Source: a virus. Taken from it: a stretch of DNA of 24,840 nucleotides. The notes below the pieces were generated by a model, which saw only the letters and a program-made list of their open reading frames with translations, searched no databases and had not been told where the DNA came from. The stretch covers positions 1 through 24,840 of the IMG/VR virus record IMGVR_UViG_3300022935_000113, one strand, 5' to 3'. This document shows, one piece after another, positions 1,528-21,395 of this stretch. Position 1 is the first letter of the stretch. Each line of letters opens with the position of its first letter. The position numbers were made by a program, and so were the translations under genes.

Positions 1528-1536
1528 GTTTTTGCG

Positions 1537-1550: not shown

Positions 1551-1577
1551 GTTGGTATGGTTGTTGCATCCTTCACT

Positions 1578-1746: not shown

Positions 1747-1772
1747 GTGGGAAAGGTATTCAGGAGTGTATA

Positions 1773-2056: not shown

Positions 2057-2066
2057 AAACCATGTG

Positions 2067-2258
2067 ATGTTTACTGCATTTGTTCTCCTGTGTGCGCAAG
2101 ACATATGTTTTGCAGTTGGCGGTCCATCCTTCAGCACAGAGAATGAGTGCATAGCGGATTTTATGCAGAATGGCGTCATAGCGCTGCAGCTCAAATATCC
2201 GACGCACACGATACAGCAAGTGAAATGCTATGAGTGGGAAAAGAGAATTGGCGCGTAG
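2067..2258 (+). CDS. small secreted or membrane-anchored protein, 63 aa
   Basis: Starting at the ATG at 2067, the protein begins MFTAFVLLCAQDICFAVGG, a short hydrophobic segment, then GPSFSTENECIADFMQNGV, and ends with KCYEWEKRIGA. Four cysteines occur (9, 14, 27 and one near the C-terminus), suggesting disulphides outside the cytoplasm. Similar short proteins with a hydrophobic N-terminus and an ExxCxxDF segment occur in marine phages, without known function. The frame extends upstream to 1962 but would then overlap the Cys-rich microprotein, and the hydrophobic start favours 2067 (or GTG 2064). The ribosome binding site is weak (GAGAAGCGAG about 10 bases upstream). Confidence 0.6.
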   Translation: MFTAFVLLCAQDICFAVGGPSFSTENECIADFMQNGVIALQLKYPTHTIQQVKCYEWEKRIGA

Positions 2259-2275
2259 CAAGGTGAAATGGTGAT

Positions 2276-3930: not shown

Positions 3931-4097
3931 GTACACACGTTTATGAAACCGAAATGAATGATTTTGGAAAATCTCTTTTAGAGACTAACCCAAATTTTAA
4001 AATTGAAATTCTTGAAACCTTAGGCGACGAGAATGATCTCCTACCAATGTATAAAGTTCGAGTGACTGAAGAGAGGCCAGATGAGCGATCAAGTTGA
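3927..4097 (+). CDS. hypothetical protein, 56 aa
   Basis: The ATG at 3927 overlaps the preceding stop (ATGA) and opens 56 codons ending at TGA 4095-4097, overlapping the next gene by 17 bases. The product starts MSTHVYETEMNDFGKSLLE and contains LPMYKVRVTEERPDERSS. It fills what would otherwise be a 150-base gap in a region with no other gaps, which is the main support. It is acidic, soluble and unrecognised. The last part also holds the ribosome binding site (GAGAGG, 4071-4076) of the following gene. Confidence 0.6.
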   Translation: MSTHVYETEMNDFGKSLLETNPNFKIEILETLGDENDLLPMYKVRVTEERPDERSS

Positions 4098-4641
4098 AGA
4101 CATCCGTAAAAAGTTTTCCTTAGCATTTGATGATGTTGATCCTTACGCACGAAAGTTGGTTTACAAAACTGACGATCAGGGGCGCACATACCGAGATTTT
4201 GGAGATTATTTATATACAGAGGATCAGCTCCAAAATTTTATGGAATACATGAACGCTGAGCCTAATCTTCTTGATACGCGCCGCAGTGCGGTGCGAAATT
4301 TTATGGGAAAGGGACGCGATCCTATGGAAGCCATGGCGATGTCTAAGGCTATGGAGATGGTCCCAGTGGCAAATTTGCCATATGTCGCTGATGATGTTTA
4401 TGGGAGAGCTAGGCAGATTAGGGACGCATATCAGGAGGAAAGAAAACTTGATATGCTAGGCCATATTGCAATGATGGGCTTGGATGTTGCGCCATCAATA
4501 TACGGTGGCTTTAAAGGGCTACAGTTTGGGCGAAATGTTTTAAAAAATGACGCCGCTAAAATGGCGAAAACGCCTATGTCAATGCGCAAGCAGCCACCTT
4601 TAAGCGCAGGCATTCTTAACGACTATTTGACAGGTAAATAG
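4081..4641 (+). CDS. hypothetical protein, 186 aa
   Basis: A 186-residue protein preceded by GAGAGG at 4071-4076. The N-terminal half is acidic (MSDQVEDIRKKFSLAFDDVD) with a Tyr-rich DYLYTEDQLQNFMEYM stretch. Residues about 75-95 are Met-rich (DPMEAMAMSKAMEMVPVAN). A moderately hydrophobic segment near residues 125-146 (LGHIAMMGLDVAPSIYGGF) could contact a membrane or pack inside the particle. No family recognised. It ends 9 bases before the portal start, so it belongs to the block of poorly known proteins directly upstream of the portal. Confidence 0.7.
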   Translation: MSDQVEDIRKKFSLAFDDVDPYARKLVYKTDDQGRTYRDFGDYLYTEDQLQNFMEYMNAEPNLLDTRRSAVRNFMGKGRDPMEAMAMSKAMEMVPVANLPYVADDVYGRARQIRDAYQEERKLDMLGHIAMMGLDVAPSIYGGFKGLQFGRNVLKNDAAKMAKTPMSMRKQPPLSAGILNDYLTGK

Positions 4642-4650
4642 GAGCCGTAC

Positions 4651-6774
4651 ATGGACTACGAAATCAACGAGCTTACGGCGCAACTTGAAGCCGAGTTAAA
4701 TCCGGATGTAATGTCGGAAGAAGATCTGAAGGCGATTGTCGGAAAAGAGATCGACGACGCAATTGACTTCATCGACAATTGGGTAAGCCCAAGCAGGGCA
4801 ACCGCTACGGAATATTATCGCGGCGAGCCATTTGGCAACGAAGAAGACGGGCGCAGCCAAGTTGTCAGCATGGACGTGCGGGATACCGTACAGGCGATCA
4901 TGCCGTCGCTGATGCGTATATTTAATAGCACAGAGCATACCGTTGAATACGTCCCAAATGGGCCGGAAGACGTCGCCATAGCGAAGCAGGCGACAGATTA
5001 CGCTAACTATATCATCAACCGCGACAACAACGGATTTTTACATATCCACGCGGCGTTCAAAGATGCGCTAATCCGTAAGGCAGGCATTTTGAAATGTTAC
5101 TGGGATGACCAGACAAAATTTGAAACACATGATTTCACAGGATTAGACGATAATGGCTTAAACGCCTTGATGGCGGATCCAGATGTCGAGGTTGATATTG
5201 TTGCCTCCGAGCCAGTTGGTGAGCCTCAGATGGACCCTATGACAGGCATGATTATGCCTCCCCCTATGGTTCACGCGGCGCGCGCAACGTACACAATGCC
5301 AGATGGCCGAGTTAAGCTGGAGGCTGTGCCGCCGGAGGAGTTTCTAATATCACGCGAAGCAAAATCCCTTGAGGACGCGGATTACGTCGCCCACCGGCGC
5401 GTTATGACGGTGTCAGAGCTTGTTTCGATGGGGTACGACTTTGACGAGGTTTCCAGCCTTGGTTCTGCATATGACGACATGGAGACAAACGTCGAGCGTT
5501 ACACCCGCAATAGAGCTTTGGCAAACGAGATGAACGAGCGCGACGACCCCGCGATGAAGAAGGTGCTCTACATCGAAAGCTACATAAAAGTAGACTACGA
5601 CGGTGACGGCATTGCCGAGCTGCGTAAAGTTTGCACCGCCGGCGACGGCAAAAAGATACTGATGAACGAGCCGTGTGCAATGGTTCCATTCGCAGTGTTC
5701 TGCCCAGATCCTGAAGCGCATGATTTCTTTGGCATGTCTATCGCTGACACCGTTATGGATATCCAGCGCATCAAGTCATCAATCATGCGCAACACGCTTG
5801 ATAGCTTGTCTATGTCTATCCACCCGCGTGTCGCGGTGACTGAGGGCATGGTCAACATTGAGGATGTTATGTCAACAGAGGTTGGCGCCATAATTCGACA
5901 GCGATCTGCCGGTCAGGTCCAGCCGCTTTCCATGCCATTCGTTGGCCAAGCGGCGTTTCCGGTACTCCAGTACATGGACGAGATCAAAGAGGCCCGCACA
6001 GGCATCTCAAAGGCGTCTGCAGGCTTAGATGCCAACGCCCTGCAATCATCCACCGCGTCGGCGGTTCAAGCCACTGTGAGCGCCGCTCAGCAACATATTG
6101 AGCTGATCGCGCGTATCTTTGCTGAAACCGGAATGAAGCAGCTTTATAAGATTGTGCTAAACCTGATTACAACTCACCAAGACCAGCCTCGCATGGTGCG
6201 GCTAAATAATGAGTTTATCCCAATCGACCCAAGGACGTGGAACACAAATTTTGACGTATCCACAAATGTCGCGCTTGGCCGAGGGACTGACACAGAGCGT
6301 ATGATGATGCTACGCCAGATTGCGGAGATGCAGAAGGAGGCCATGTCAACAATGGGTCCAATCAATCCGCTTACGGATATGTCGAAGTTGGCTAATACAT
6401 TGAAGGCGATGACAGATCTAGCGGGCTTCAAGGACACATCACAATTCTGGGGTGACCCGACCAAGTTCCAGCCTCCGCCACAGGATGACAAGCCGGATAT
6501 TAATGAGCAGTTAATCGCTGTCCAGATCCAGCAAATCCAAGCTGATATCCAAAAGAAAGTTGCCGAGTTACAGCTTGAGCGCGAAAAGATGATGATGGAA
6601 GACGACCGGAAGCGCGACGAGCTTGAAGCTGAGCTGTACGTTAAAGCTGAAGAAATGAAAGCTAAGTATGGCACGCAGCTAAACGTCGAGAAAATCCGAT
6701 CAGACATGTCTATTAACCGTGAGGTTATGAAGGCACAGGCAGACATAATTAAAGAGGCTGCGCGTGAAGAGTAG
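4651..6774 (+). CDS. portal protein (P22-like)
   Basis: A 707-residue protein with the layout of P22-type portals: an acidic N-terminal segment, the wing/clip region with RSQVVSMDVRDTVQAIMP (68-85), an FGMSIADTVMDIQRIKSSIM segment (about 360-379) and TGISKASAGLDANALQ (450-465) near the crown. The portal forms the dodecameric ring at one vertex through which DNA is packaged and ejected. Residues 315-320 read DYDGDG, a possible divalent-metal loop. Residues about 617-705 are highly charged and strongly predicted by eye to be a long helical coiled coil, unusually long for a barrel. AGGAG (4640-4644) precedes the ATG. The last 11 bases overlap the next gene. Family assignment is from remembered sequence features and length. 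Confidence 0.88.
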   Translation: MDYEINELTAQLEAELNPDVMSEEDLKAIVGKEIDDAIDFIDNWVSPSRATATEYYRGEPFGNEEDGRSQVVSMDVRDTVQAIMPSLMRIFNSTEHTVEYVPNGPEDVAIAKQATDYANYIINRDNNGFLHIHAAFKDALIRKAGILKCYWDDQTKFETHDFTGLDDNGLNALMADPDVEVDIVASEPVGEPQMDPMTGMIMPPPMVHAARATYTMPDGRVKLEAVPPEEFLISREAKSLEDADYVAHRRVMTVSELVSMGYDFDEVSSLGSAYDDMETNVERYTRNRALANEMNERDDPAMKKVLYIESYIKVDYDGDGIAELRKVCTAGDGKKILMNEPCAMVPFAVFCPDPEAHDFFGMSIADTVMDIQRIKSSIMRNTLDSLSMSIHPRVAVTEGMVNIEDVMSTEVGAIIRQRSAGQVQPLSMPFVGQAAFPVLQYMDEIKEARTGISKASAGLDANALQSSTASAVQATVSAAQQHIELIARIFAETGMKQLYKIVLNLITTHQDQPRMVRLNNEFIPIDPRTWNTNFDVSTNVALGRGTDTERMMMLRQIAEMQKEAMSTMGPINPLTDMSKLANTLKAMTDLAGFKDTSQFWGDPTKFQPPPQDDKPDINEQLIAVQIQQIQADIQKKVAELQLEREKMMMEDDRKRDELEAELYVKAEEMKAKYGTQLNVEKIRSDMSINREVMKAQADIIKEAAREE

Positions 6775-7006
6775 ACAGCAAGTCATAGATGACGGCAGGG
6801 AGGCGAAGCGCCTCCTTGAAGATACAGATCTCCAAAAGTTTATGGATGAATTCGAGCGAGATTGTTGGGAGCAGTTTACTAAATCTGCCCCTGACGACCA
6901 AGGCGGGAGAGAGGGTTTATACATGAAACTGCAAGGCTTAGAGGCTTTCCGCCAAAAGCTGCGCGCAATGGAAGATAACGCGACTATTGAAAAAAATAAA
7001 AAGTAG
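6764..7006 (+). CDS. small conserved phage protein, 80 aa (GTG start)
   Basis: An 80-residue highly charged, probably all-helical protein (DLQKFMDEFERDCWEQFTK, GGREGLYMKLQGLEAFRQK). It starts with GTG inside the last codons of the portal gene (11-base overlap), with AGAGG at 6753-6757 as the ribosome binding site. Short helical proteins of this type lie between portal and scaffold in related phages; function unknown, perhaps a portal or scaffold accessory. The CWEQF and GGREGLYM segments look like the conserved core. Confidence 0.75.
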   Translation: MKSRQQVIDDGREAKRLLEDTDLQKFMDEFERDCWEQFTKSAPDDQGGREGLYMKLQGLEAFRQKLRAMEDNATIEKNKK

Positions 7007-7028
7007 CCGCATAATATGGAGTTAACGC

Positions 7029-8030
7029 ATGTCAGAAACCAACAACCCTCTTGGGACTGATCTGAACACCGCACAAAATGCAATCAAGGCACTACTCACA
7101 CCTGAAGAGGATACTGTGACAGACCCTGATGCGCTTGAGGCTGAAGCCGTAGAAGCGGAAGCCGAAATGCCAGAGCACGATGAAGAGTACTCTCAAGAGT
7201 ACGATTCAGAGTACGATGGCGATCTTGAAGCTGAAGGCGACGCCGAAGAGCTTGACGACACATCCTTTGACTTACTGTCGGCCACGGTCGAGGTAGATGG
7301 AGAAGAGATTACCGTCGAAGAGTTAAAACGCGGAAATCTAAGGCAGCGAGATTATACACGCAAAACTCAAGAACTGGCCGAAGCTCGAAAGCAGATGGAG
7401 GCGCAATTTGAGGATATAGAGCGTGAACGGGCTCAATACGCACAAATGCTCCCTGCACTGCAGGCGCGTTTGGAGCAGCCGGTTGAACAGGAGCCAGATT
7501 GGGACACTCTGTATGATGCAGACCCAAGGATGGCAGCAAAGGCAGAACGTCAGTGGAAAAAGCGGCAAGAAGAGCGCGAAGCTCAATTGCAAGCTGTACA
7601 AGCTGAACGTCAGCGCTTAGCCGAGATGGAGCAGCAAAAGATGCATCAAATGCAGGCTCGCTACTTTGAGGAACAGCGTAATATTCTGCCGGATATCATT
7701 CCAGAGTGGCGCGATAATACCGTCGCCGCGAAAGAGGCCAAGGATCTTAGAGCTTTCCTTCTAAATGAAGGTTTTAGTGAAGAAGATGTAAACGGCCTAA
7801 CGAATGCAACGCTTGTGAAGTTAGCGAGGAAAGCAATGTTGTACGATAAAGGTCAGACACGCGCAACGGAGGCTCGGAAAAAGCCGAAGACGCAGAAGAC
7901 CAAGACACTCAAAGCTGGATCTCGTAACACGCAGCCTAAACCGAAGAGTTCGCAGCAACAGGCGCTACAGCGCGTACGTCAAACTGGCCGTGTGCAAGAT
8001 GCCGCGGCTGCAATCAAATCTCTACTTTAG
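7029..8030 (+). CDS. capsid scaffolding protein
   Basis: A 333-residue protein with a very acidic N-terminal third (EAEAVEAEAEMPEHDEEYSQ), the motif VEVDGEEITVEELKRGNLRQ at 87-106, a long charged coiled coil at about 108-215, and a basic C-terminal tail (ARKKPKTQKTKTLKAGSR) ending DAAAAIKSLL. Acid, coiled coil, basic tail, and position between portal and major capsid genes is the standard arrangement for phage scaffolds, which template the procapsid and leave or are degraded. No protease domain is present, so it should be a separable scaffold. GGAG at 7018-7021 precedes the start; its stop codon overlaps the capsid gene's ribosome binding site. Confidence 0.8.
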   Translation: MSETNNPLGTDLNTAQNAIKALLTPEEDTVTDPDALEAEAVEAEAEMPEHDEEYSQEYDSEYDGDLEAEGDAEELDDTSFDLLSATVEVDGEEITVEELKRGNLRQRDYTRKTQELAEARKQMEAQFEDIERERAQYAQMLPALQARLEQPVEQEPDWDTLYDADPRMAAKAERQWKKRQEEREAQLQAVQAERQRLAEMEQQKMHQMQARYFEEQRNILPDIIPEWRDNTVAAKEAKDLRAFLLNEGFSEEDVNGLTNATLVKLARKAMLYDKGQTRATEARKKPKTQKTKTLKAGSRNTQPKPKSSQQQALQRVRQTGRVQDAAAAIKSLL

Positions 8031-9079: not shown

Positions 9080-9379
9080 ATGAAACGTCTTTTCAGCCAA
9101 GATCCAGTGACCGGCATCACTAAATACTGGCATGTCACCGACAAGGGAGAGTATGTCGTTGAAACGCAGCAAGATGTTTCATCAATTGCGGCATCAAATA
9201 GGCGCCAGTACAACGACACCCCAGATAGATATGGTGACGTCAACAAGGTAGCTTCTATTCCGCTTTCAGTGTATTATGAGCTGAAGCGCAAGGGGATTGC
9301 AGACGATCCGAAAGCGTTTCGCAAGTGGTTGAATGACCGCGACAACCAAGTATTTAGGACAAGGGCGGGTACGCTGTGA
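9080..9379 (+). CDS. small phage protein of the connector region, 99 aa
   Basis: A 99-residue protein from MKRLFSQDPVTGITKYW to RDNQVFRTRAGTL. The C-terminal DPKAFRKWLNDRDNQVFRTR is the part I recall from proteins next to capsid genes in related phages, where it is only annotated as hypothetical. The ATG at 9080 is preceded by GGAGGG (9070-9075). An in-frame ATG at 9029 would place the terminator hairpin in the coding sequence and lacks a ribosome binding site, so it is rejected. It sits between capsid and adaptor genes and its stop overlaps the adaptor start (GTGA). Confidence 0.75.
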   Translation: MKRLFSQDPVTGITKYWHVTDKGEYVVETQQDVSSIAASNRRQYNDTPDRYGDVNKVASIPLSVYYELKRKGIADDPKAFRKWLNDRDNQVFRTRAGTL

Positions 9380-9993
9380 GCATTACAACCTACGCAGAAT
9401 TACAATCGGCCATATCTAACTGGCTAAACCGAAGCGATTTAGACGCGGTTATTCCGGACTTTATCGCGTTGACCGAAGCTGACATGGACCGCAAGGTGCG
9501 CCACTGGCGCATGGAAGAGCGAGCCACTGCAGACATCGACGCGCGCTACACGCAGCTTCCCAGCGGCTTTCTAGAGGCTGTACGCTTTCACCTAGACGTT
9601 GACGAGCGCTCAATTGACTTAGTCACGCCGGTCTACATGCAGAAGCAGCGCAACGGCAATAATGACGCCACTGGGCGCCCGAGGTATTACTCTATCATCG
9701 GTGGCCAAATAGAAGTCTGGCCAACCCCTGACGGGACGTACAGCGGGGAGTTGTACTACTACGCCAGAACTGCGCCATTAACTGACTCAAACACGTCAAA
9801 CTGGATATTGCAGTATTTCCCTGACGCTTACCTATACGGCGCTCTCATGCACGCAGCGCCGTACCTTGTAGATGACCAGAGAACACAAGTTTGGGCGCCG
9901 TTGTATCAACAGGCTATTGCTGGTATAAATGCAAATAACGAAACTGCTAAATTTGGCGGATCCGGCTTGCGTATGCAAGTGAACACATTCTAG
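9376..9993 (+). CDS. head-tail adaptor protein (SU10-like)
   Basis: A 205-residue protein, starting with GTG in a GTGA overlap with the preceding stop. It begins MSITTYAELQSAISNWLNRS and contains FIALTEADMDRKVRHWRMEE (29-48), TQLPSGFLEAVRFHLD and RYYSIIGGQIEVWPTPDG. These are features of the adaptor family of short-tailed phages, a mostly helical protein that forms a ring under the portal and joins the tail. The position after the capsid genes fits. A short unstructured C-terminus (AKFGGSGLRMQVNTF) would reach into the portal or nozzle. Confidence 0.8.
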   Translation: MSITTYAELQSAISNWLNRSDLDAVIPDFIALTEADMDRKVRHWRMEERATADIDARYTQLPSGFLEAVRFHLDVDERSIDLVTPVYMQKQRNGNNDATGRPRYYSIIGGQIEVWPTPDGTYSGELYYYARTAPLTDSNTSNWILQYFPDAYLYGALMHAAPYLVDDQRTQVWAPLYQQAIAGINANNETAKFGGSGLRMQVNTF

Positions 9994-10386: not shown

Positions 10387-10725
10387 ATGGCTAAGTTATT
10401 TAGTAGAGTTAGAGTTGAAACCTCGACAACTGGAACCGGTGATGTCACGATTGGGGCGCCCGTTGCGGGTTTTACTAGCTTTGCTAATGCAGGCGTAGTA
10501 GATGGCGACACTGTATCATACGTCATTGAAGATGGCGCAGGCTACGAAATTGGTACTGGTGTCTACACAGCTTCAGGCACAACATTGACAAGAAATGTCA
10601 TACAGAGCAGCAACAGTAACAGCGCTTTAAGTTTAACCGGAAACGCGGAACTATTTCTATCTTTAAATAGTAATGACGTTTACACTCAAGACCAAGCTAT
10701 TGGCATTACGATCGCGTTAGGATGA
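10387..10725 (+). CDS. virion structural protein, likely fibre-associated, 112 aa
   Basis: A 112-residue beta-rich protein containing TSTTGTGDVTIGAPVAGFTS, VIEDGAGYEIGTGVYTAS and TTLTRNVIQSSNSNSAL. This domain occurs widely in phages as a separate small protein or as part of fibre proteins; the ETSTT(G)TGxxTxG...GxGxYxxSGTTLxR pattern is its signature. It lies directly before the giant structural gene, 4 bases apart, and may be its partner or base. Exact function is unknown. The ribosome binding site is weak (AGCGTAGG). Confidence 0.7.
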   Translation: MAKLFSRVRVETSTTGTGDVTIGAPVAGFTSFANAGVVDGDTVSYVIEDGAGYEIGTGVYTASGTTLTRNVIQSSNSNSALSLTGNAELFLSLNSNDVYTQDQAIGITIALG

Positions 10726-10729
10726 AAAG

Positions 10730-13700
10730 ATGGCAAAAAAGATAGTCTTCAATTACGAGTTCGACGCTGACGAACAAAAGATTACCCTACTTGATGACGT
10801 TTACCCAAAGCGCCGTTTGCTGATGATAACAAACGTGACCAGCGGGGAAATTATTTATCTTTTCAATGACGCCACCAAAAGTGGTACGTTCGCGTTCGAT
10901 TACGATGACTACACTACAACCATCACGCTTGACTACGACACCACCGCAATGGATGATGCAGACGAGCTGCAAATTTTTGTGGAGTGGGATAACCAGACGG
11001 TAGACTTTGATGAAAGTTACGTTGACCCAGTTTCAAAAATTAGGGTGTCCCAGCCAGAGAACCTAATTGACACTGACTTTGAATATGGGCTTCAGTCAAC
11101 TAAGTGGGAAACGCTTGAGCTTACTAAAAACATTCCGACGTTTTACAGCCGTAACGGAGATTTATCTTTTGAGATAGATGATATTACGGTGCAAAGCGGC
11201 AGTAACACTGTAACAGTTGTTACTGTTTCAGAGCATGGCCTTCAGCGTGGAACACCTATCCTAGTGCAAGGCACGGCGTCTTCATTGTGTGATGGCGGTT
11301 TTACAAGTTTATCTGTTATCAATGATACGACTTTTACTTATCAGGCTAAGTCAAATTTATCTTTTAGTGGAAGCATAAAAACAACCAATACCCAAGTATT
11401 CCAAGGTTCAATATACTCCGGTACTGAATTTAAAATCAGAAGTATTGCCGGTATTACTTCAGACGGAGTGGCAGAGGGTTCGACCTTAACGGTGACCACC
11501 GAGTATCCAACAGACTTTGTTGCTGGAACAAAATTTGCCTTAACAAATAGCTTCGCTTCAGCCGGCAGAACATTTAGCACGGCTAATGTTGATATAGAAA
11601 ATGTATCAACTGACACTAAGACAGTAACCATAGGCTACACGTCAGAGGCTTCGAGTAATACCTCCCAAGCAATGACCACAATACAGCCATACAATTACTC
11701 CGCAAAAGATAATAGATCAATTTACATTGACCCAAACGATGTAACTGTGAACAACGGAGATATTTATTTTACAAATGGCCACGGCAGGCCATTCAATTCT
11801 GATACTGGCGTTACTGATAATATGCAAAGCGCACAATTTACATTCTACTATGACATTCCGTTTGGTGAAACGCCTATCTCCCCTCTACAAAGAGGTAGAT
11901 TTTACATTGCTAGATATATTGACGCAAACCGCCTTAGAGTTTTCCCATATGTAAACAATACTGGGAACTCAAGTGATTCGTACCCTTATTACAGCGACAT
12001 ATTTGCATATTATGCACAATACAATTTTAATAAAATTAACATTACTAGCATTCCAGCTAGGTCTACCTATAAGCACGCATTCTTAGGTGGTTACTTTACA
12101 AACAGATCAGATCGCACCCAAGATCGTTTGCACATGTATTACAACAGATATATTGCCTACAACTTTAATTGGCCGTCCAGATCGCACATTAATACATTCA
12201 CAACTAGTGATAATTCCTACGACTTCTCTGACAACGACGGAATACACTTAATTGCGGGTGACACCAGTAATAGTGCGTCTATAGATAATGGTTTATGGTC
12301 TAACGGAAGTAGCGCTGCTGAGTTTAGAAGCCTATCGGTGGGCAGCTCAAGCCTTACTTATGTTTACGGCGGTTCAAGTAACACATCCTACATTCCTAGC
12401 CGCTTTGGCACTTATAGGATGTCGTTAGCAACCGTTAATGCGATTGACCATGTTTCTATACCCCTACAGTTAAACAATAACAGGAATACTATATTTTTAA
12501 GTAACCACGGCTTTTTGTCAGGTGACACTGTAGTCTACACTCTTACCTCTGGAACCCAACCTTCTGGACTAGTTAGTGGTAGAACCTACATAGTTACTAG
12601 AATTAGTAGTGATAGATTTAAGTTAAATTACAATGGCTCTGAAGTTGATCTATCGACCCATGGTAGCATTGGGGCTGTTTTAAATTTTAGCGTAACATCT
12701 ATAAACCCAAATGCTGACACTATAGAAATTGCAGAAAATACCTTTCAAGAGGGTGACGCGGTTCTCTACACTGACGGCGGCGGAACTGCTATTGGGGGCT
12801 TAGTTAGCGGCGATACATATTACGTTTACAGAAAATCTGGGGATAGATTTAGACTAGCCTCAGACCCAAACCTAGTTACAGGCGTTAGTGTTAGTATGGG
12901 TAGCACCAGATCTTGGAACACTACTTACTTCAGAACTGACAACACTATTAGACCTTATTTTTTTAACACACATGGGTTCACTACTGGCAATGCTATTTTG
13001 TATACACAAACATCTGGAAATCCTGTCGGCGATCTAAAATCTGGTAATATCTATTACGTCAGGGCGATCAGCTCTGTGTATTTTGCTCTATATTCATCTC
13101 GCTCAGACGCTTTAAGTGATACTTCTAGAATAAGAATTTCTATTCCTAGTGGGTTCCCGCTTTTTACGGAAAATTATGCAGTTGACTTTACGAGTAAGCC
13201 GTCGCCAGATGAAGATCACGTTTTGGGTAGTTCATTCGTAGGCGCGGCAGATGGTAACTATACTCTTGCTACTACGTCTGCAGACCAAATGTCTTTTACA
13301 CTTTCTTCCAACTCAACAATCTTGGGCAGGCAGATTGAAACGACTGTGCAAAATTCGTTTATTGAAAACGAAGATGCGTTTTACTACAGGGATCATGGGT
13401 TCGCCACTGGCGCGGATGTAGTTTACACATCATCCCAACTGCATTTTAGCGGCCTGACAAGCGGCGCAACTTATTACGTCATACCATTAGACAGAAACCG
13501 CTTCCAACTTGCTACGTCGCAAGACAATGCATCACAGGGCATTGCTGTAAGCCTGTCGTCTAGTGGGAGTTCATCTAGCCCTATAACTGACGTTATATCG
13601 TTTCAGGGTAATAGTATTGTCGCAGCGGCGGCTGGCAACGGAACTATTGCGTTCAGTAATGGCGGAATAGTAGTCTCCGGCGACGGGACATTATTCAACT

Positions 13701-16162
13701 CTTTATTTAAATCTGGGGATACGATAAAAGTGTCGCCCGAGACTACAGAGTTTGGCTATGAGGAGAATTCAAATTCAATCATTACAACAGTAGCTGGTAG
13801 CTCAACTCCTACCAGTCATAACATGAACACTGGAGACAGTGTCGCTTTTAGGCTTGTATCCGGCGCGTTTCCAGACGGCGATTTGCTTGAGAACAGAGTG
13901 TATTATATTCGTGATCTTGGTAGTACGACTATTGCGCTTTACTACACAAGATCTGACGCCATAGCCGGTACAAACCAGATTATTTTAAGTGGCACTGGAT
14001 ATTACTCTAATGTAAGAATTATCCCTCTAGATAGAGGAGAAATTATAGAAAGAGTTGTTGATTATGTTAATAGCAACACGCAATTAGAGGTCACTGATCC
14101 TTTTGAAACTTCTGCGACATCAGGAACATATTTTATCAATAGCCAACTTCTACTTAGACCTGACGGATTTGCTTTACACCGCCCATATGACGGCGGCGTT
14201 GAGCTAATTCCGCCCACCAATCCAGACAGCCAAATGATACGGCAAACTCGTAAATACTTTCGGTATCAGTCTGGTAAAGGTATTCAGGTATCGTTTGCAG
14301 TAAACTTTAGCCCTACAACTCAAGTTGACGACATGTATTACGACGGGTCTGGGGATTTGTACTTAAAGACACGTTTCCCCCACAGGTTGAGCGCGGGACT
14401 TGAGATTGAAGTGTCAGAAGCAACAGGATCAAATGCTGACAACTTTAATGGCGTTAGGTCTGTTAGCTCTATTATTGATGACTACACGGCTGTCCTTGAT
14501 ACTGGCGTATCAGGTTCTGCGAATATTCAGATACAAGGTAACGCAGAATTTTATGTTAAAGGCTGGAACAATAGCTCATTAAAGTGTGGGCTATTTGACG
14601 ACCAAAACGGTATATTCTTTAGTTATGACGGAGGGTCTTTATCTTGTAACGTAAGGTCTTCAATCCGCCAAATAGCCGGAACTTCACAACTTACATTTCG
14701 CAGTGGCGACGTTAACGGAACAGGGACAAAGTTTTTATCGCAACTTGTGAAAGGCCAATACGTCGTTATCAAGGGGCAGTCTTATCAAGTTACAAAAATA
14801 TCAAGTGACACACTTTTCCATATTACGCCTAGCTACCGAGGCACAGACGCCCAAGGCGTAATTATTACAGTCACAGAAACTAACAGCACTCCGCAAGAAC
14901 AGTGGAATTTGGATAAGGCTGACGGAACTGGGTACACAGGCTTCCAGCTTGATTTATCACGAATTCAAATGGCTTACATTGACTACTCTTGGTACGGCGC
15001 TGGTAAGGTGAGGTTTGGATTTAAGGACCAGCACGGTAAGGTGCAATATGTCCATGAGTTTGTGCATGGCAACTTTAAGACCGAGGCTTACATGCGCTCT
15101 GGAAACATTCCGGCGCGGTACGAAATCCAAAATAACGGCTTACCCTCTTATGTTCCAGCGCTTGCGCACTGGGGTACGTCTGTAATTATGGATGGCCGGT
15201 TTGACGACGACAAAGCATACGTCTTTAATGCGTCAGGTAATAACATCAGTACAACTGGCTCAAATAGTCTGACATTCACCGGTGAAATTGAAACACTTAA
15301 AAAGTATCGAGAGCCTGACAACGGTAACATATTTTTAAATTATGCTGTCCATGTTGAAGTGCCGGACGCGCAATTAAATGCAGCTTTTGCGAAGGTTGGC
15401 ATAACAGGCGCGGGGCTGGCATCAGGTACGGTTTTGGCGCTACCGGAAAGCACATCTGCGACATACTATCAGCCATACCAGCCTAGTGTGAAAACCAGAA
15501 TTTCTGGTGAGGGTTCATCAACAGATAGGACTAGAACCCTTATGTTGATAGATAGAGCCCCAACAGCCTTACCTACTCCTGATCCTCAAACAGGGTTAAC
15601 AACAAGTACATATACTCTTGATCTAGATGTTGGGGAAGGCGGAGCTGACGCATCACAAGTGACAAGAAATATCCCGCTGATTAGTGTAAGGCTGGCTCCT
15701 TCTGTTGATACATCTACAGTTGGAAAACTTGGTGAGCGTGAAATTATTAACAGGATGCAACTTATTCTAAGTCAGGTGTCTATTCTTACGACGCATACCG
15801 CTGAGATTAAGTTGATACTTAATGGACTTTTATCAACAAACGCTTGGCAGCGTGTTACAAACCCGTCACTTTCTGAGTTAATTTACCATGGCGGCAACGA
15901 CACAATTTCTGGGGGCGCTGCATTATTCTCCTTCCGAGCCTCTGGGGACACTGGGACAACCCGCTCGCAACAGCTAACCACTCAGGCGTTAGGCGACGTG
16001 GCGACATTGGGTAACTCAATTCTGGGCGGCGACCAGCCGTTCCCAGATGGTCCAGATGTTCTAACGGTTGTGGCGACCCTCACAGAAGACCCGTCAACAG
16101 TAAACTCATCAACGCCATTTAGCGTATCAGGTCGTATTTCATGGTCTGAGAGCCAAGCGTAA
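10730..16162 (+). CDS. giant virion structural protein, 1810 aa (myovirus-like C-terminus)
   Basis: An 1810-residue protein, by far the largest here. Order of parts: beta-rich N-terminus (1-145); a first EHGL module (168-205); a Tyr/Asn-rich, AT-rich-coded segment (320-580); five degenerate HGF...GL..G..YYV...RF.L modules (592-1080); and a C-terminal part (about 1140-1810) with RPDGFALHRPYDGGVE, QTRKYFRYQSGKGIQVSFA, IDYSWYGAGKVRFGFKD, GTSVIMDGRFDDDKAY and the ending FSVSGRISWSESQA. The C-terminal motifs match, from memory, large virion proteins of T4-like marine (cyanophage/pelagiphage) myoviruses. No catalytic motif is apparent. It is most likely an external tail or fibre-attached protein contacting the host. 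Few charged clusters and high Ser/Thr/Asn content fit an all-beta fold. Confidence 0.8.
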   Translation: MAKKIVFNYEFDADEQKITLLDDVYPKRRLLMITNVTSGEIIYLFNDATKSGTFAFDYDDYTTTITLDYDTTAMDDADELQIFVEWDNQTVDFDESYVDPVSKIRVSQPENLIDTDFEYGLQSTKWETLELTKNIPTFYSRNGDLSFEIDDITVQSGSNTVTVVTVSEHGLQRGTPILVQGTASSLCDGGFTSLSVINDTTFTYQAKSNLSFSGSIKTTNTQVFQGSIYSGTEFKIRSIAGITSDGVAEGSTLTVTTEYPTDFVAGTKFALTNSFASAGRTFSTANVDIENVSTDTKTVTIGYTSEASSNTSQAMTTIQPYNYSAKDNRSIYIDPNDVTVNNGDIYFTNGHGRPFNSDTGVTDNMQSAQFTFYYDIPFGETPISPLQRGRFYIARYIDANRLRVFPYVNNTGNSSDSYPYYSDIFAYYAQYNFNKINITSIPARSTYKHAFLGGYFTNRSDRTQDRLHMYYNRYIAYNFNWPSRSHINTFTTSDNSYDFSDNDGIHLIAGDTSNSASIDNGLWSNGSSAAEFRSLSVGSSSLTYVYGGSSNTSYIPSRFGTYRMSLATVNAIDHVSIPLQLNNNRNTIFLSNHGFLSGDTVVYTLTSGTQPSGLVSGRTYIVTRISSDRFKLNYNGSEVDLSTHGSIGAVLNFSVTSINPNADTIEIAENTFQEGDAVLYTDGGGTAIGGLVSGDTYYVYRKSGDRFRLASDPNLVTGVSVSMGSTRSWNTTYFRTDNTIRPYFFNTHGFTTGNAILYTQTSGNPVGDLKSGNIYYVRAISSVYFALYSSRSDALSDTSRIRISIPSGFPLFTENYAVDFTSKPSPDEDHVLGSSFVGAADGNYTLATTSADQMSFTLSSNSTILGRQIETTVQNSFIENEDAFYYRDHGFATGADVVYTSSQLHFSGLTSGATYYVIPLDRNRFQLATSQDNASQGIAVSLSSSGSSSSPITDVISFQGNSIVAAAAGNGTIAFSNGGIVVSGDGTLFNSLFKSGDTIKVSPETTEFGYEENSNSIITTVAGSSTPTSHNMNTGDSVAFRLVSGAFPDGDLLENRVYYIRDLGSTTIALYYTRSDAIAGTNQIILSGTGYYSNVRIIPLDRGEIIERVVDYVNSNTQLEVTDPFETSATSGTYFINSQLLLRPDGFALHRPYDGGVELIPPTNPDSQMIRQTRKYFRYQSGKGIQVSFAVNFSPTTQVDDMYYDGSGDLYLKTRFPHRLSAGLEIEVSEATGSNADNFNGVRSVSSIIDDYTAVLDTGVSGSANIQIQGNAEFYVKGWNNSSLKCGLFDDQNGIFFSYDGGSLSCNVRSSIRQIAGTSQLTFRSGDVNGTGTKFLSQLVKGQYVVIKGQSYQVTKISSDTLFHITPSYRGTDAQGVIITVTETNSTPQEQWNLDKADGTGYTGFQLDLSRIQMAYIDYSWYGAGKVRFGFKDQHGKVQYVHEFVHGNFKTEAYMRSGNIPARYEIQNNGLPSYVPALAHWGTSVIMDGRFDDDKAYVFNASGNNISTTGSNSLTFTGEIETLKKYREPDNGNIFLNYAVHVEVPDAQLNAAFAKVGITGAGLASGTVLALPESTSATYYQPYQPSVKTRISGEGSSTDRTRTLMLIDRAPTALPTPDPQTGLTTSTYTLDLDVGEGGADASQVTRNIPLISVRLAPSVDTSTVGKLGEREIINRMQLILSQVSILTTHTAEIKLILNGLLSTNAWQRVTNPSLSELIYHGGNDTISGGAALFSFRASGDTGTTRSQQLTTQALGDVATLGNSILGGDQPFPDGPDVLTVVATLTEDPSTVNSSTPFSVSGRISWSESQA
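12503..13969 (+). repeat. five degenerate HGF/YYV protein modules in the giant gene
   Basis: Modules start near residues 592, 670, 747, 888 and 1029. Each has a turn (HGF or HNM) with (S/T)GD or (S/T)GN, an aromatic beta strand (VVYT, VLYT, ILYT, VVYT, VAFR), a GL/GD-x-SG turn, a second strand (TYIV, TYYV, IYYV, TYYV, VYYI) and a closing RFKL/RFRL/YFAL/RFQL/TIAL. The second lacks the HGF turn. An earlier related copy begins near 168. Spacing varies (about 77 to 141 residues). Confidence 0.7.
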
Positions 16163-16181: not shown

Positions 16182-17351
16182 ATGTTAGGCTTTAATCCCC
16201 TAGCCGCTACGCCTCTTTCCTCGGCTTCAGTCGGTGATATAAACTTTAGCACCGTAAATTTTCAAGCTGACGACATCACCAGCTCAGCGCCGGTTATTGA
16301 TATTGTTTCTATTTTTGAGGAAGAAACAGTACCGATTTCCGATATCACGCTTGGCGCACCAACGATCGGCGCCGTCACCGCGCTTTATACAGACGTACTA
16401 TCCGCCGACGAAATTACACTCGCCACGCCGGTGGTGGACACGGCGTCTGTGTTTGAAGACGAAACGGTAACAGTCGATGACGTCATAACCGGATCCCCAG
16501 TAGTTGACGGGGCAACTCCGGTTTACACCGATGTCCTGTTTGCAGACGATATCACATCCAGCGTTCCTGTGGTCGATGGCGCGACGCCGCAATATACAGA
16601 CGTTTTGGCCGCTAACGAAATCACGCTAGGGGTTCCAACGGTAGATACGGCTCCTGTGTTTGAGCGTGAAACTTGCGACGTTGATGATGTGACGCTAGGC
16701 GCACCGTCTATTGAGACTGCGACGGTCGCTGTCATTTCCAACTTCTTCCCGCAGGGTGTAACCGCCGGCTCTCCAGATGTGGATACGTTATCGGTCTTTC
16801 AAGAGTATATATTGGCGGCAGAAGATATCACAGCCGGCGTGCCGACGTTTGCGGTGCGCTTTACTTGGGACTTCCAAGAGCTTGTTGCTGAGAGTTGGCG
16901 TGAGGCTTACCCAAATCCGTTCCCGCCTTATTATGACAACCTAGTTACTAAGTATGCTCTGGTGGAGGGTGTGCTAAGGTCTGTAGTTGGGTTTCAGCCA
17001 GAAGAAGATTTATTTGTAAACACAATAGTTGGCGGTCGCTCTTTAGGCTCTGTGCATAACGGTAGCATAGGTTATGTTAACGCAAATGATGCAAATCGTA
17101 TAATTAGATACATATCTGGGGCCAGTATTAGCGAAGAAGCACTAGACTACATAGAAAACTATATGCTGCCTTATATGGCGGCTAACCCTGATCTATATTC
17201 TAAATATTACACGGGCGACGGCACTTCTACTAGATTGCCTAATTGGAGCGAACAGGGAGAAAGCACAGACACTTGGACTGAGCAAGCTCCGCTAAGCGCA
17301 AGTTGGACAGAGGCTTCTGAAAGTGTTAAAGTTTGGACAAATGCCGCATAG
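16182..17351 (+). CDS. tail fibre-type protein with nine exact 23-residue repeats
   Basis: A 389-residue protein: an N-terminal 29 residues (MLGFNPLAATPLSSASVGDI), nine 23-residue repeats (30-236) of the form D-D-I-T-x-x-x-P-V-V-D, a globular segment (about 228-345) and four Trp repeats at W355, W365, W375 and W385. AAGGAGG (16167-16172) precedes the start. The repeat resembles ITxGAPxxxxP repeats that I recall in fibre or tail proteins of alphaproteobacterial phages; they probably form a beta-prism or beta-helix shaft. It lies between the giant protein and other fibre genes. No enzyme motif. A strong base composition change occurs at about 16,900-17,000, just after the repeats. Confidence 0.78.
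   Translation: MLGFNPLAATPLSSASVGDINFSTVNFQADDITSSAPVIDIVSIFEEETVPISDITLGAPTIGAVTALYTDVLSADEITLATPVVDTASVFEDETVTVDDVITGSPVVDGATPVYTDVLFADDITSSVPVVDGATPQYTDVLAANEITLGVPTVDTAPVFERETCDVDDVTLGAPSIETATVAVISNFFPQGVTAGSPDVDTLSVFQEYILAAEDITAGVPTFAVRFTWDFQELVAESWREAYPNPFPPYYDNLVTKYALVEGVLRSVVGFQPEEDLFVNTIVGGRSLGSVHNGSIGYVNANDANRIIRYISGASISEEALDYIENYMLPYMAANPDLYSKYYTGDGTSTRLPNWSEQGESTDTWTEQAPLSASWTEASESVKVWTNAA
16269..16889 (+). repeat. nine tandem 69-base coding repeats
   Basis: Repeat units begin at residues 30, 53, 76, 99, 122, 145, 168, 191 and 214, each exactly 23 residues apart without an insertion or deletion. Unit ends alternate between an F-E-x-E-T type (units 1, 3, 6) and a Y-T-D-V-L type (units 2, 4, 5), suggesting amplification partly as 46-residue pairs. 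Units 7-9 are more diverged. Confidence 0.9.
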
Positions 17352-17360: not shown

Positions 17361-17945
17361 ATGGCTATAACGATTACAAAACCTACAGTCGGGGCGTCCG
17401 AGGACACTTGGGGGACGCAGATAAACACGGCGCTAGATACAATTGTGTCTGAGGTAAACGAAAACGCTGATGGGACGAACCCTATAGTCTTAAAAGAAGG
17501 TGCATTTCAAATTGGAACGACCTCTGCCGCCACGACAGTTGCAACTACGGGCGACGAGCTAAACGTTTTAGACGGTGATACTGTCGCGTCCTCTGTCGAT
17601 GTGGCGACCACAGACCAAATCATACTGAACGACGATGGCGTTATGAAGCAAGTGACGGTTGCCACTCTCAGCGCTGCAATACCTTCAGAAGTTATTGACG
17701 ACGAAACGCCGCAACTTGGCGGCAACTTAGACCTTAATGAAAGTGATATCACTGGCACTGGTAATATTAATATCACTGGCGGCTTAACCGCGACAGCGGC
17801 GACAGGATTGACGCTAGGAAATTGGACAATTTACGTTTCGGGGACTGACTTAAAGTTTAAATATGGGTCAACTGACCGCTTTAAGCTATCAAGCTCTGGA
17901 GCGCTTACTGTAGAAAGTAATGTAACGGCATATGGGGGTGCTTAA
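17361..17945 (+). CDS. tail fibre protein, 194 aa
   Basis: A 194-residue protein of typical phage fibre composition. It starts MAITITKPTVGASEDTWGTQ, a segment common at the N-terminus of marine phage fibres (the attachment part), then has TGDELNVLDGDTV (63-75), a repeat-type shaft motif, DETPQLGGNLDLNESDITG (114-132), GNWTIYVSGTDLKFKYG and a C-terminal SSSGALTVESNVTAYG. Ser/Thr/Gly/Ala-rich and low in charge, fitting a trimeric beta-helical shaft. AGGAG (17350-17354) precedes the ATG. The stop overlaps the next start (TAATG), coupling it to the glycine-rich adhesin, probably its tip. Confidence 0.8.
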   Translation: MAITITKPTVGASEDTWGTQINTALDTIVSEVNENADGTNPIVLKEGAFQIGTTSAATTVATTGDELNVLDGDTVASSVDVATTDQIILNDDGVMKQVTVATLSAAIPSEVIDDETPQLGGNLDLNESDITGTGNINITGGLTATAATGLTLGNWTIYVSGTDLKFKYGSTDRFKLSSSGALTVESNVTAYGGA

Positions 17946-19072
17946 TGGCTTTAGCTACCACAAATTTAAGTATGCTTAACATTCAGAATGAGTTTGGTGG
18001 CTCAACTCCTATATCTTTGAGTGAATATTATAAAGGCGGCGGGCTTGTAAGCCCTGACGCAGTAGACCCGTATACTATTCCCACAGGGTCAGCCGGAACC
18101 ACTATTTCTATAGGAGATTTTAGGGGAGCTGAGCAATATATTGCGCCAACAACTTACACCTACACTTTAACAAGTAGCACTCAGGGTGAGTGGGATATGA
18201 GGGCAGCGGCAATAGCAGACGGCTGGGATGGCAGCTTACAGCTATTTGTAATCATAGACAGCGGCGTCTACGTCTGGTCTGATAACACGTCAACTCCTGC
18301 TATGTTGATAGCTGGCTCCTTCCCCAACGGACTTACCGTGACAGTTAATGGGTTTATTATTGGGAAAGGTGGCGAGTCAGCAGTAAGAGCAGGCGTATAT
18401 ACTCAGTTAGGCCAAGCTGGTGGCCCTGCCATCGAATGTAACTCAAACTGCTCCATAAATATAGGAAGCTCAGGCTGGATCGGCGGCGGCGGTGGCAGTG
18501 GTGGAGGCTCCTATGGCGGCGGCGGTGCTGGTGGAGGTAATGGTAATATTGCATTTTCAGTTACCGCGGATGGCGGTGCAATTGGTCAAGAGGGCGACGA
18601 TAACGCGGGTGTTACGGGTTCAGGAGGTGGCGCAGGGGGCGCTGGTGGGGGCCAGATCGCAGGGACCAGCGCAAATTATGTGACACAAAACCAATACAAC
18701 TCTGGTAATTATATTACCCAAGGGGCTGCCGGTGGCAGAAAAATAGGAACAGGTGCAACTGGTGGTAACGCGGCTGCGTTTACTACTCACGGCGCAAACG
18801 GCGGCGATGGCGGTGCAAATGGCAGTGCTGGCGATGATTCAGGTCCAGACGGTAGCCAATCTGGAATGTGCTTTGTCCAAGACGGAGGCTTTGCCGTAAA
18901 CGGTTCAGGCGGTGGCGGTGGCTGGGGCGCTGATGGTGGTGATGGGTATTATAGGCAAAACTTTGGTGTGGCTGGGGTAAGAAAGGCCGGTGGATCAGGC
19001 GGTGCAGCTAAGATAGGCACAGGTTCGGTTACATGGTCAGGTTCAACTTCACATATATTAGGAGCTACATGA
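17945..19072 (+). CDS. glycine-rich tail adhesin, likely receptor-binding
   Basis: A 375-residue protein. The N-terminal part (1-65) has SMLNIQNEFGGSTPISLSEY and TTISIGDFRG, an attachment domain common to phage adhesins. A beta domain (66-140) includes FVIIDSGVYVWSD. Residues 140-355 are very Gly-rich (WIGGGGGSGGGSYGGGGAGG and several later clusters), like polyglycine type II sandwiches of T-even gp38 adhesins, where loops between Gly blocks bind the receptor. The loops here (for example ANYVTQNQYNSGNYI, GMCFVQDGGFAVN) would then be specificity determinants. The Gly-rich fold is inferred by analogy. The gene follows the fibre gene by TAATG overlap and is next to a small gene that may be its partner. 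Confidence 0.75.
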   Translation: MALATTNLSMLNIQNEFGGSTPISLSEYYKGGGLVSPDAVDPYTIPTGSAGTTISIGDFRGAEQYIAPTTYTYTLTSSTQGEWDMRAAAIADGWDGSLQLFVIIDSGVYVWSDNTSTPAMLIAGSFPNGLTVTVNGFIIGKGGESAVRAGVYTQLGQAGGPAIECNSNCSINIGSSGWIGGGGGSGGGSYGGGGAGGGNGNIAFSVTADGGAIGQEGDDNAGVTGSGGGAGGAGGGQIAGTSANYVTQNQYNSGNYITQGAAGGRKIGTGATGGNAAAFTTHGANGGDGGANGSAGDDSGPDGSQSGMCFVQDGGFAVNGSGGGGGWGADGGDGYYRQNFGVAGVRKAGGSGGAAKIGTGSVTWSGSTSHILGAT

Positions 19073-19452
19073 TGCAAGAAGAATACGGATACGGAGGTAA
19101 TGTATACGCTACCCAAGCAGAGGTGGATCAGGCTGTTATTGACTTAAAAAATGAGCTTGATAACCAGCCCACTGTTTACTGTAGGATTAAGCGCGTTACT
19201 GGAAGCGAAGAGGATGGCTGGACAGTCCCCGAAGAGCTTCTGACTGATCAAGAGATATTGTCTGCCACTGACGGTTTTTATAGCGCGTCATCTAGATACG
19301 CTTCTGAAAATCACATGGGATTAACGGCATCAGAAATGCTATCAAAAGTGGCTGAGTATAAAATTTTGCATGGACAACACAAGTTGGCGAACACTGTGTT
19401 ATATTATAGGAAAACAGCGCCAACCAACGAAGACATGTCAGGATATGTATAA
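19072..19452 (+). CDS. hypothetical protein following the adhesin, 126 aa
   Basis: A 126-residue acidic protein starting MQEEYGYGGNVYATQAEVDQ, with VTGSEEDGWTVPEELLTDQE and a helical C-terminal half. Two consecutive ATGs exist (19069 and 19072). AGGAG at 19060-19064 is 7 bases from the second, which also overlaps the adhesin stop, so I use 19072; the first would add one Met. Unrecognised. Location directly after the adhesin and coupling to it make an adhesin chaperone or fibre-joint protein possible, as in gp37/gp38 systems, but nothing in the sequence shows this. Confidence 0.7.
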   Translation: MQEEYGYGGNVYATQAEVDQAVIDLKNELDNQPTVYCRIKRVTGSEEDGWTVPEELLTDQEILSATDGFYSASSRYASENHMGLTASEMLSKVAEYKILHGQHKLANTVLYYRKTAPTNEDMSGYV

Positions 19453-21395
19453 TGCCGCTCATACCTCTAAAAATCCCCGCCGGTTTTTATCGTACCGGCA
19501 CAGACCTTGATGGGTCTGGTCGCTGGCGCGATGGTTCACTTGTCCGGTGGCGTGACGGGTCGCTTCGGCCTGTAAAGGGGTGGAGGCAAAATGAAAATAT
19601 TGATGATATATCAGAAAACCCGCCGCGCGGGATGCACTCTTGGCAGACGCAAGACAACTCAAGATTTTTAGCCGCCGGCACTTATAATGAGTTGAAAGCC
19701 GCTTTAGCATCTGGCGCAGTCTACGACATTACGCCATCAAATCTCACAAGTGGATCTAAGGATGCGCAAGTCAACATTGGTTATGGCTACGCAGCATACG
19801 GGACAGGCATTTACGGTGACCCTCGCCCAGACACCGGAAACTTAGTCGAGGCGACCACTTGGTCTTTGGATAACTGGGGCGAAAATTTGGTAGGGACGTC
19901 ACCTGCAGACGGTAGGATTTGGGAGTGGTCTTTAGATACGGTCACTGGTTCTGAGCTTGTCCAGAATGGTACGTTTGACGTAGCTCCGACTTCGCCTGAT
20001 TGGGTTCTTGGCACTGGCTGGGTTTACAGAGGATCCCCTGACTTTAAAGTTCGTTGGGATAAAAGCGCAGCGTCTGCAGTGACAAGTCTTGAGACATATG
20101 TTTTTGGGTTATCATCAGGGACAAAATACGTTGTCACATTATCTCTCCAAGACGTTGATGATTCAGATGGTATTACGCCATCAGTCAAAATTAAAGTAAC
20201 TGGTCTTGCCACATTAACTGAACTTATTGTGGATGATCTAAAGGTTGGCTTAAATACCGTCGTATTTGAAAGCGACGACAGTAGTGCGAAGCTAGAAATT
20301 TATCCAAACACTGCCACAGAAGAAGACTTTGACATCGACACCATAAGTGTCAAGGAGGCCGTCGAGGCGCAGCAAGTCGCAAACTCCCCAACGTCTGTAG
20401 GATCTATTCTTGTTACAGAGGAGCGGTTCATATTTGCGCTTGGATGCACAAGCCAAGACCCAGTGACGGGTTATTCTCCGCGCTTAGTTAGGTGGTGCGA
20501 CAGGGAAGATAACACGTCTTGGACGGCGACGGCTCTAAACCAAGCCGGTGAAATTGAGTTGCAAACTTCAGGCAAGATTGAAACCGGAATTCGCACACGC
20601 GGCCAAACCTTAATTATTACTGACGTTGATGCGCATATCGCAAGATACGTTGGCCCACCATATGTATATGGTTTTGAGCGTGTAGGTACTTCATGTGGTA
20701 TTATATCACGAAAGGCGGCGGCTGATGTTGACGCCGGTACATTCTGGATGGGCAAGGGCGCGTTTTACCGATTTGACGGGAACGTCGTTTCGCAAATACC
20801 GTGTGACGTCCATGATTATGTATTCAACGATTTGAATACAAGCCAACGCAGTAAAGTTTGGGCTTGGACAAACGGCCAGTTCAGCGAAATTTGGTGGTTC
20901 TACCCGTCATCTAGCAGTACAGATAACGAAATTGATAAGTATGTCGCGTATGACTACCGCGAGGGGCATTGGCTTATTGGGGAGTTATCTAGAACGTCAG
21001 GCACAGAACAGGGCGTGTTTGAGTATTCAATGTTGGCAGGCGCAGATGGCGCGGTGTACGACCACGAAGTTGGCCGCTCATACCTGAACGGCGCAGATCA
21101 GGCGATTGTATACGCGGAAACAAGCGCGATCAGTTTAGGCAATGGCGACCAGATCATGCAGGTCACAGACCTTATTCCTGACGAAAAGACGCAAGGCGAT
21201 GTGAGTATAAGTTTTAAAAGCAGGTACTATCCCAACGCCGAAGAGTTTTCGCACGGACCGTATACGCCGTCAAACCCGACGTCTGTTAGATTTTCTGGTC
21301 GCCAAATACGCATGAAGGTTCAGGGTAGTGACCCGTATACGGATTGGAACGTAGGTACGATGCGAGTTAATGCAAAGGCAGGGGGTACTAGGTAA
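19452..21395 (+). CDS. tail nozzle / stabilization protein (P22 gp10-like) with inserted domain
   Basis: A 647-residue protein starting MPLIPLKIPAGFYRTGTDLD, with the motif GRWRDGSLVRWRDGSLRPVKGW (23-44), typical of P22 gp10-like stabilization/nozzle proteins that form the lower tail tube. The core continues with FIFALGC, the propeller-type IRTRGQTLIITDVDAHIA (380-397), FWMGKGAFYRFDG and EIWWFYPSSSS. Between residues about 165 and 303 lies an extra domain (SELVQNGTFD...DFDIDTISVKE) that resembles a carbohydrate-binding jelly-roll. The start overlaps the preceding stop (TAATG). Family assignment is from motif memory; a structure prediction would settle it. Confidence 0.7.
   Translation: MPLIPLKIPAGFYRTGTDLDGSGRWRDGSLVRWRDGSLRPVKGWRQNENIDDISENPPRGMHSWQTQDNSRFLAAGTYNELKAALASGAVYDITPSNLTSGSKDAQVNIGYGYAAYGTGIYGDPRPDTGNLVEATTWSLDNWGENLVGTSPADGRIWEWSLDTVTGSELVQNGTFDVAPTSPDWVLGTGWVYRGSPDFKVRWDKSAASAVTSLETYVFGLSSGTKYVVTLSLQDVDDSDGITPSVKIKVTGLATLTELIVDDLKVGLNTVVFESDDSSAKLEIYPNTATEEDFDIDTISVKEAVEAQQVANSPTSVGSILVTEERFIFALGCTSQDPVTGYSPRLVRWCDREDNTSWTATALNQAGEIELQTSGKIETGIRTRGQTLIITDVDAHIARYVGPPYVYGFERVGTSCGIISRKAAADVDAGTFWMGKGAFYRFDGNVVSQIPCDVHDYVFNDLNTSQRSKVWAWTNGQFSEIWWFYPSSSSTDNEIDKYVAYDYREGHWLIGELSRTSGTEQGVFEYSMLAGADGAVYDHEVGRSYLNGADQAIVYAETSAISLGNGDQIMQVTDLIPDEKTQGDVSISFKSRYYPNAEEFSHGPYTPSNPTSVRFSGRQIRMKVQGSDPYTDWNVGTMRVNAKAGGTR
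19944..20360 (+). other. carbohydrate-binding-like domain inserted in the nozzle gene
   Basis: Residues about 165-303 begin with ELVQNGTFDV and WVLGTGWVYRG and end with DIDTISVKE, the start and end patterns of CBM-like jelly-roll domains (NGxF(D)...W...G...; a late D(F)DID strand). The core nozzle sequence resumes at ANSPTSVGSILVTEER. Recognition is by eye. Confidence 0.5.

Follow-up and report, generated by a model that had tools for sequence, protein, structure and literature searches.

The 1810-aa protein encoded at 10730–16162 on the plus strand of the window (hereafter the giant; the window being the whole stretch analysed, an entire linear virus contig of 24.8 kb that represents a partial genome) is probably the exchangeable distal part of a two-gene tail fibre, docked by a small, tail-specific anchor through a short tag at the C-terminus of that anchor. 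The homology of the anchor, the anchor–tag architecture, the replacement at the fibre site, and the exchange of the giant emerge from comparisons with other viral contigs and phage records, which are labelled here by L-numbers (L011, L012, L109, and so on).

All the structural genes discussed lie on the plus strand of the window, in the following order: an SU10 portal (4651–6774; PF23899, 9.9e-211), a scaffold, a major head protein (phrog_1328), a 116-aa gene, an SU10-type tail adaptor (9376–9993; PF24175, 3.4e-37, with solved structures 7z47 and 9nwi), which is the presumed tail-side site for the anchor, a 125-aa gene, the 112-aa anchor gene (10387–10725), the giant, a 389-aa beta-repeat protein (16182–17351), three further genes, and a tail nozzle of 647 aa (19452–21395; phrog_3287, with matches to the solved nozzles 9nwi, 6.8e-13, and 8zkk, 7.9e-8); among the last four genes of the window are those for a DNA-ejection-type protein and for a type of protein released during infection. 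A preliminary description of this DNA placed the giant between an SU10-like adaptor and a nozzle, and both are indeed there, although genes of 389, 194, 375, and 139 aa separate the giant from the nozzle. The first of these appears to be a resident of the SU10 lineage outside the exchanged unit, with a 54% homologue in L109, a contig lacking the giant. The 375-aa protein (17945–19072), with a glycine-rich second half and a match to phrog_10745 (unknown), is possibly another fibre component. Upstream of the portal (1–4641), no terminase was recognised, a minus-strand ORF (2–865) matches phrog_5931 (unknown), and three plus-strand ORFs just before the portal match nothing. Profile searches of the window for the contractile sheath (PF04984) and the T4 portal (PF07230) were negative, and near relatives of about 36–39 kb are also devoid of a sheath; with an SU10 portal and adaptor, a nozzle, and no sheath in this partial contig, the structural genes are best described as a podovirus-type module. 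The earlier proposal of a role without a contractile tail is supported by the complete podovirus ctQRb9, which carries the giant and has no sheath.

The reading frame of the giant is open throughout, and its translation contains the three motifs quoted in the preliminary description from the stretch 14147–16159, which corresponds exactly to residues 1140–1810. In PHROGs, the giant matches phrog_5838 (4e-170) and phrog_1645 (2.6e-39), the best-matching stretches falling in the region of residues 1140–1810, and it has the N-terminal domain, the RVS.PENLIDTDFEYG motif, the RYQSGKG...YSWYGAGK core, and the terminal ISWSESQA of phrog_5838, in agreement with membership of that family. Residues 1–300 and 1137–1810 are conserved and residues 301–1130 are divergent. 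The conserved N-terminal part comprises a beta domain at residues 1–90 (10730–10999; AlphaFold2 pLDDT 90–98), followed at residues 91–135 (11000–11134) by the motif DPVSKIRVSQPENLIDTDFEYGLQSTKWETLE, which is common to the short phrog_1645 proteins and modelled with low confidence. Residues 301–1130 (11630–14119) form an array of beta domains with HG..G..V.Y...G..YYV-type repeats, which is the fastest-diverging part and is missing from the short relatives; the phrog_1645 profile aligns collinearly with both ends of the giant, with around 1000 residues inserted between them. The conserved core at residues 1137–1810 (14138–16159; mean pLDDT 82) is predicted for the most part as confident beta domains, and a small subdomain resembles the F2-pyocin side fibre 25ve in sequence (E 2.1e-6). 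In the PDB, fold matches of the giant were weak, including lectin-like and lyase-like ones, and no convincing structural likeness of the core to any solved structure was found. A capsid turret or decoration was also considered and rejected, because the Foldseek matches among predicted viral structures were weak (haloarchaeal tailed viruses, TM 0.3–0.5, one of them HFTV1), the head of the turret is described in the HFTV1 paper as a deacetylase-like domain, and the PDB matches were unconvincing. Some variation in the layout of the giant was observed: in L078 it is apparently split into two genes (1757–5926 and 5938–7440), the DTDFEYG motif being encoded in an ORF of its own, upstream of the core; in DSL-LC01 (L004:10200–12674) an 824-aa neighbour bears this motif; and in the podovirus giants of L025, L037, L045, L046, and L055 the core is about 115 aa longer than in the window or L011.

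The C-terminal third had been regarded as the host-contact module, a role that the distribution of conservation does not favour: it is 84–93% identical to that of L011 and among the best-conserved parts of the protein, whereas the identity falls to 49% in residues 301–1130, against 80–96% elsewhere, and the C-terminal third therefore looks like a conserved scaffold rather than the variable part in contact with the host. Positive selection on residues 301–1130 was rejected in the comparison of L011 with L012, where dN/dS is 0.39 in this region and 0.10–0.14 elsewhere but dS is raised too, pointing to faster evolution or recombination; the dN/dS contrast is small in other close pairs.

Relatives of the giant are widespread, with at least 590 related stretches in viral contigs, and a tblastn search with the region of residues 1140–1810 recovered 172 phage records, the majority from myoviruses of Synechococcus and Prochlorococcus, so that the matches are not confined to podoviruses. 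Neither are they confined to T4-like marine phages, to which the C-terminal motifs had been ascribed: the best match among annotated phages is the podovirus ctQRb9 (57.6% over the full query), ahead of the cyanomyovirus S-BM3 (45.8%), an Actinomycetia phage, and then many Kyanoviridae. Short relatives (phrog_1645) occur in the podovirus HMO-2011, the cyanomyovirus S-RIM8, and the Synechococcus siphovirus S-CBS4. Because relatives stand in podovirus, cyanomyovirus, and siphovirus records, exchange of this family across tail types appears to be already visible in public genomes, and the depositors of HMO-2011 remarked in its record on the likeness of the short relative to S-RSM4. The short protein of HMO-2011 (L006:4655–5914) is 67% identical to that of S-RIM8 (L094:6926–8236), a likeness that would represent a second, separate podovirus–myovirus exchange, and S-CBS4 (L096:4240–7887) bears two tandem diverged relatives (gp44 and gp45) amid tail-fibre genes.

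A tree of the core, with 69 rows from 80 viral contigs and annotated phages, places the window in a clade of 18 rows (SH-aLRT 100) in which 11 podoviruses (the window and 10 others, several of them labelled from adaptor or nozzle homology in partial contigs) are mixed with five sheath-bearing myoviruses (the sheath of L015 being phrog_10581); outside this clade, all the rows with a known tail are myoviruses, and well-supported branches require the podovirus label to change at least twice. Tail type was called from the sheath, the T4 neck, the T4 portal, or an SU10- or HMO-type portal, coat, adaptor, or nozzle, and 30 of the 69 rows are without a label because Phrog_156 and PF23899 label few contigs; the Pfam P22 coat profile gave no match even in HMO-2011-type records, and local BLAST was used instead. 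The window groups with L011 and L012, with 83% identity in the core, and both of these have an HMO-2011-type coat; the portal of L011 is of the same type (64% identity to HMO-2011 for the portal, 58% for the coat), and the HMO-2011 portal is only 21% identical to that of the window. The DNA similarity between the window and L011/L012 extends over 10718–16150, starting 12 bases before the giant and stopping near its last codons. Three families of podovirus major head protein accompany the giant (phrog_1328, phrog_267, and phrog_371). This mixture of podoviruses and sheath-bearing T4-like phages in the core clade, together with the incongruent gene content at the site, indicates that the giant has been exchanged between phages with different tails, as had been proposed. 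Vertical inheritance with many losses, in which the giant would be an old fibre from ancestors of podoviruses and T4-like phages with no recent exchange, agrees with the breadth of the family; nevertheless, the present data speak strongly against it and make it highly improbable, since the core is 83% identical to that of phages whose head is unrelated and whose portal is 21% identical, relatives with 79–89% identical portals do not have the giant, and the trees of the anchor and the giant disagree.

The site occupied by the giant was compared in 80 contigs with portals 79–100% identical to that of the window, 24 of which (portals 79–89%) keep at least 1.5 kb past the adaptor. None of these 24 relatives contains the giant at the site in view, either by BLAST or by profile, nor does any of 15 whole relative records, some near genome size, in searches that included a positive control, and no sheath was detected among the portal-selected relatives. 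Many of the relatives have at this position a tail fibre whose N-terminal domain is homologous (42–67%) to the 112-aa protein, several of these one-piece fibres ending in an S74 chaperone or a collar tip and others in different tips; other relatives have different fibres. The same anchor domain, which spans residues 1–95 of the window protein (10387–10671), also opens proteins of cultured phages annotated as tail fiber or S74-like. With regard to the T4 gp10-like docking domain known from anchor-branched receptor-binding systems, PHROGs gave no match for the window protein or the L017 anchor, and Pfam gave none for the window protein or the L011 anchor. In the anchor tree, for which the programme issued a long-branch warning and the domain is short, the anchor of the window falls with the SU10 relatives (SH-aLRT 99) and is separated from the anchors that accompany other giants, and plain identities agree (53–60% to most SU10 relatives, 32–43% to the anchors of other giant-bearing phages). 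Since the anchor groups with the portal lineage of the window and the giant does not, the anchor appears to have stayed with the tail lineage and the giant to have come in. The 112-aa gene can be read as a fibre of which the anchor alone is left, extended by a C-terminal tag. A second, independent case is provided by L011 and the cultured Roseobacter phage CRP-603, in which the coat is 88% and the flanking genes are 58–72% identical: at the same site, CRP-603 has a single 879-aa fibre and L011 has an anchor followed by the giant, and the N-terminus of the CRP-603 fibre is 50% identical to the L011 anchor. An apparent empty site in HMO-2011 (coat-161-238-nozzle) was superseded by this better comparison.

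The ten-residue tag at the end of the window anchor, QAIGITIALG (10693–10722), is a variant of the pattern A-[IV]-A-[YLF]-[AS]-I-A-L-G, supported by pattern counts and position preferences. The tag or a variant ends 37 of the 80 upstream-adjacent ORFs that precede giants, compared with 12 among 7920 other ORFs of these loci, counts that are descriptive because the pattern was defined after inspection of the data and many loci are related; among tagged loci, synonymous codons vary, as does the distance to the giant. In the core clade of the window, the tag is found in 15 of 15 loci with upstream sequence, 13 with the strict pattern and two (the window and L016) with variants, and around 20 of the 78 loci with upstream sequence have no tag there, including the S-PM2 lineage. 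The proteins bearing it differ, comprising the SU10/HMO-type anchor domain, a phrog_1640 N-terminus in ctQRb9, a 297-aa protein in S-BM3, and others. Residues 1–280 of the S-BM3 protein match positions 1–279 of the 1092-position phrog_9851; a regular-expression scan of S-BM3 found no further tagged proteins, its own upstream gene ending in a tag variant. Further tagged proteins of 69–1549 aa occur elsewhere in the giant-bearing contigs L053, L028, L030, L039, L047, and L067, some with typical fibre N-termini, suggesting more than one tagged anchor per genome. Outside the original sample, the portal-selected contigs contain seven tagged ORFs (around four distinct, one requiring a slightly wider pattern), each of which is the first gene for a fibre beyond the adaptor region and is followed by other small, separately encoded proteins rather than the giant, and in several cases then by a distal fibre piece. 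Because these tagged ORFs precede other separately encoded proteins, the tag seems to accompany fibres with a separately encoded distal part, and it is not specific to the giant. A shared tag acceptor in the N-terminal domain of the giant and the 114-aa alternative partner was sought by profile comparison, with a negative result.

That tagged anchors precede partners other than the giant could also mean that the tag serves a shortened anchor as a self-capping or trimerisation peptide and that the giant, merely a genetic neighbour, is attached at the neck or capsid; the PHROGs category of the family is head and packaging, and in several T4-like phages the gene adjoins that of the neck protein gp13. 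This explanation is, however, unlikely, as the position of the giant is precisely that of the tail fibre in two unrelated types of podovirus, and every member of the window clade with upstream sequence has the giant directly behind a tagged anchor; moreover, one-piece fibres end in tips of their own, the tag appearing when the distal part is encoded separately. The neighbourhood of gp13 (in S-BM3, S-CAM1, and AG-345-P14) likewise bears on the idea of a neck or tail whisker comparable to T4 fibritin, with the giant serving in assembly or sensing rather than in host binding. In T4, wac lies next to gp13. Cyanomyoviruses are without T4 wac and several fibre genes (PMC2984593), and the lack of wac also counts for this idea; nevertheless, a whisker is quite improbable, considering that in podoviruses the giant occupies the fibre site behind a fibre anchor, that no similarity of the giant to fibritin was found, and that in S-PM2 the homologue, S-PM2d173, is two genes away from S-PM2d175, a gene described as belonging to a contiguous block that may encode parts of an adhesin and as having been under selection in chemostats (PMC9910659).

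According to the favoured model of a two-gene fibre, the 112-aa protein would be a tail fibre reduced to its N-terminal anchor and binding the SU10-type tail, most likely through the adaptor, with the tag, whose alternation of Ala/Ser and hydrophobic residues suits a beta-strand, in place of the fibre shaft and tip. This terminal strand would dock the giant, a virion protein of HMO-2011/phrog_1645 type in which the two conserved ends are split by the array of around 1000 residues, and the array would project from the virion and probably contact host or environmental glycans. The neighbourhood of the S-PM2 homologue and the absence of wac and several fibre genes from cyanomyoviruses speak indirectly for such contact with the host. 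With the tail-specific part confined to the small anchor, the giant could swap between unrelated podoviruses and T4-like myoviruses, the tag sitting at the end of a local fibre anchor, and the anchor–tag junction is likely the key to its mobility. More generally, and with somewhat greater reserve, the A-x-A-x-A-I-A-L-G C-terminal peptide may well be a connector strand that recruits separate distal fibres to podovirus and myovirus anchors, in which case a single giant adhesin could be used by phages whose tails are unrelated. Transfer of host-contact proteins between unrelated tails is usually put down to mosaicism without a mechanism; the SU10-type and HMO-2011-type podoviruses offer two natural experiments in which the anchor stays with the tail, the distal part is replaced, and a short tag stands at the junction, which makes this junction a concrete, testable rule. 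It also indicates which protein is the distal fibre of numerous marine phages where the annotation reads only 'virion structural protein', and fibre genes could be annotated by their C-termini.

Several known systems resemble this arrangement in part. The phrog_5838/T4-GC_863 virion structural proteins of Kyanoviridae (S-PM2, S-BM3) are like the giant from end to end, including the N-terminal domain, the motif, and the core, but differ in residues 301–1130, and the giant of the window stands at a podovirus fibre site behind an SU10-lineage anchor. The short phrog_1645 virion proteins (HMO-2011 phage1322_65, S-RIM8) have a core collinear with that of the giant, although they comprise only about 420 aa, without the array of around 1000 residues, and the HMO-2011 copy lies upstream of the terminase. 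The one-piece tail fibres of SU10-portal and HMO-2011-type podoviruses (L147, L155, CRP-603 gp58) share the N-terminal anchor domain and gene position with the anchor of the window, but have the shaft and tip in one polypeptide and no tag. A parallel in organisation is offered by the anchor-branched systems (K1-5 gp37/gp46/gp47, G7C gp66/gp63.1, and the Klebsiella KP32 and KP34 phages), in which an anchor and a separate, exchangeable receptor-binding protein are joined by a short peptide (PMC6872550). As in these systems, the anchor and the exchangeable distal protein of the window are separately encoded, judging from homology and gene position; in K1-5, SP6, and the Klebsiella phages, however, it is the second protein that bears, at its N-terminus, the peptide docking to the anchor (PMC6872550), whereas in the window the anchor itself has the conserved peptide at its C-terminus, and the partner protein is common to different tail types. 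Docking with this reversed polarity is not described in the literature found, and would constitute a variant of the anchor-branched receptor-binding systems.
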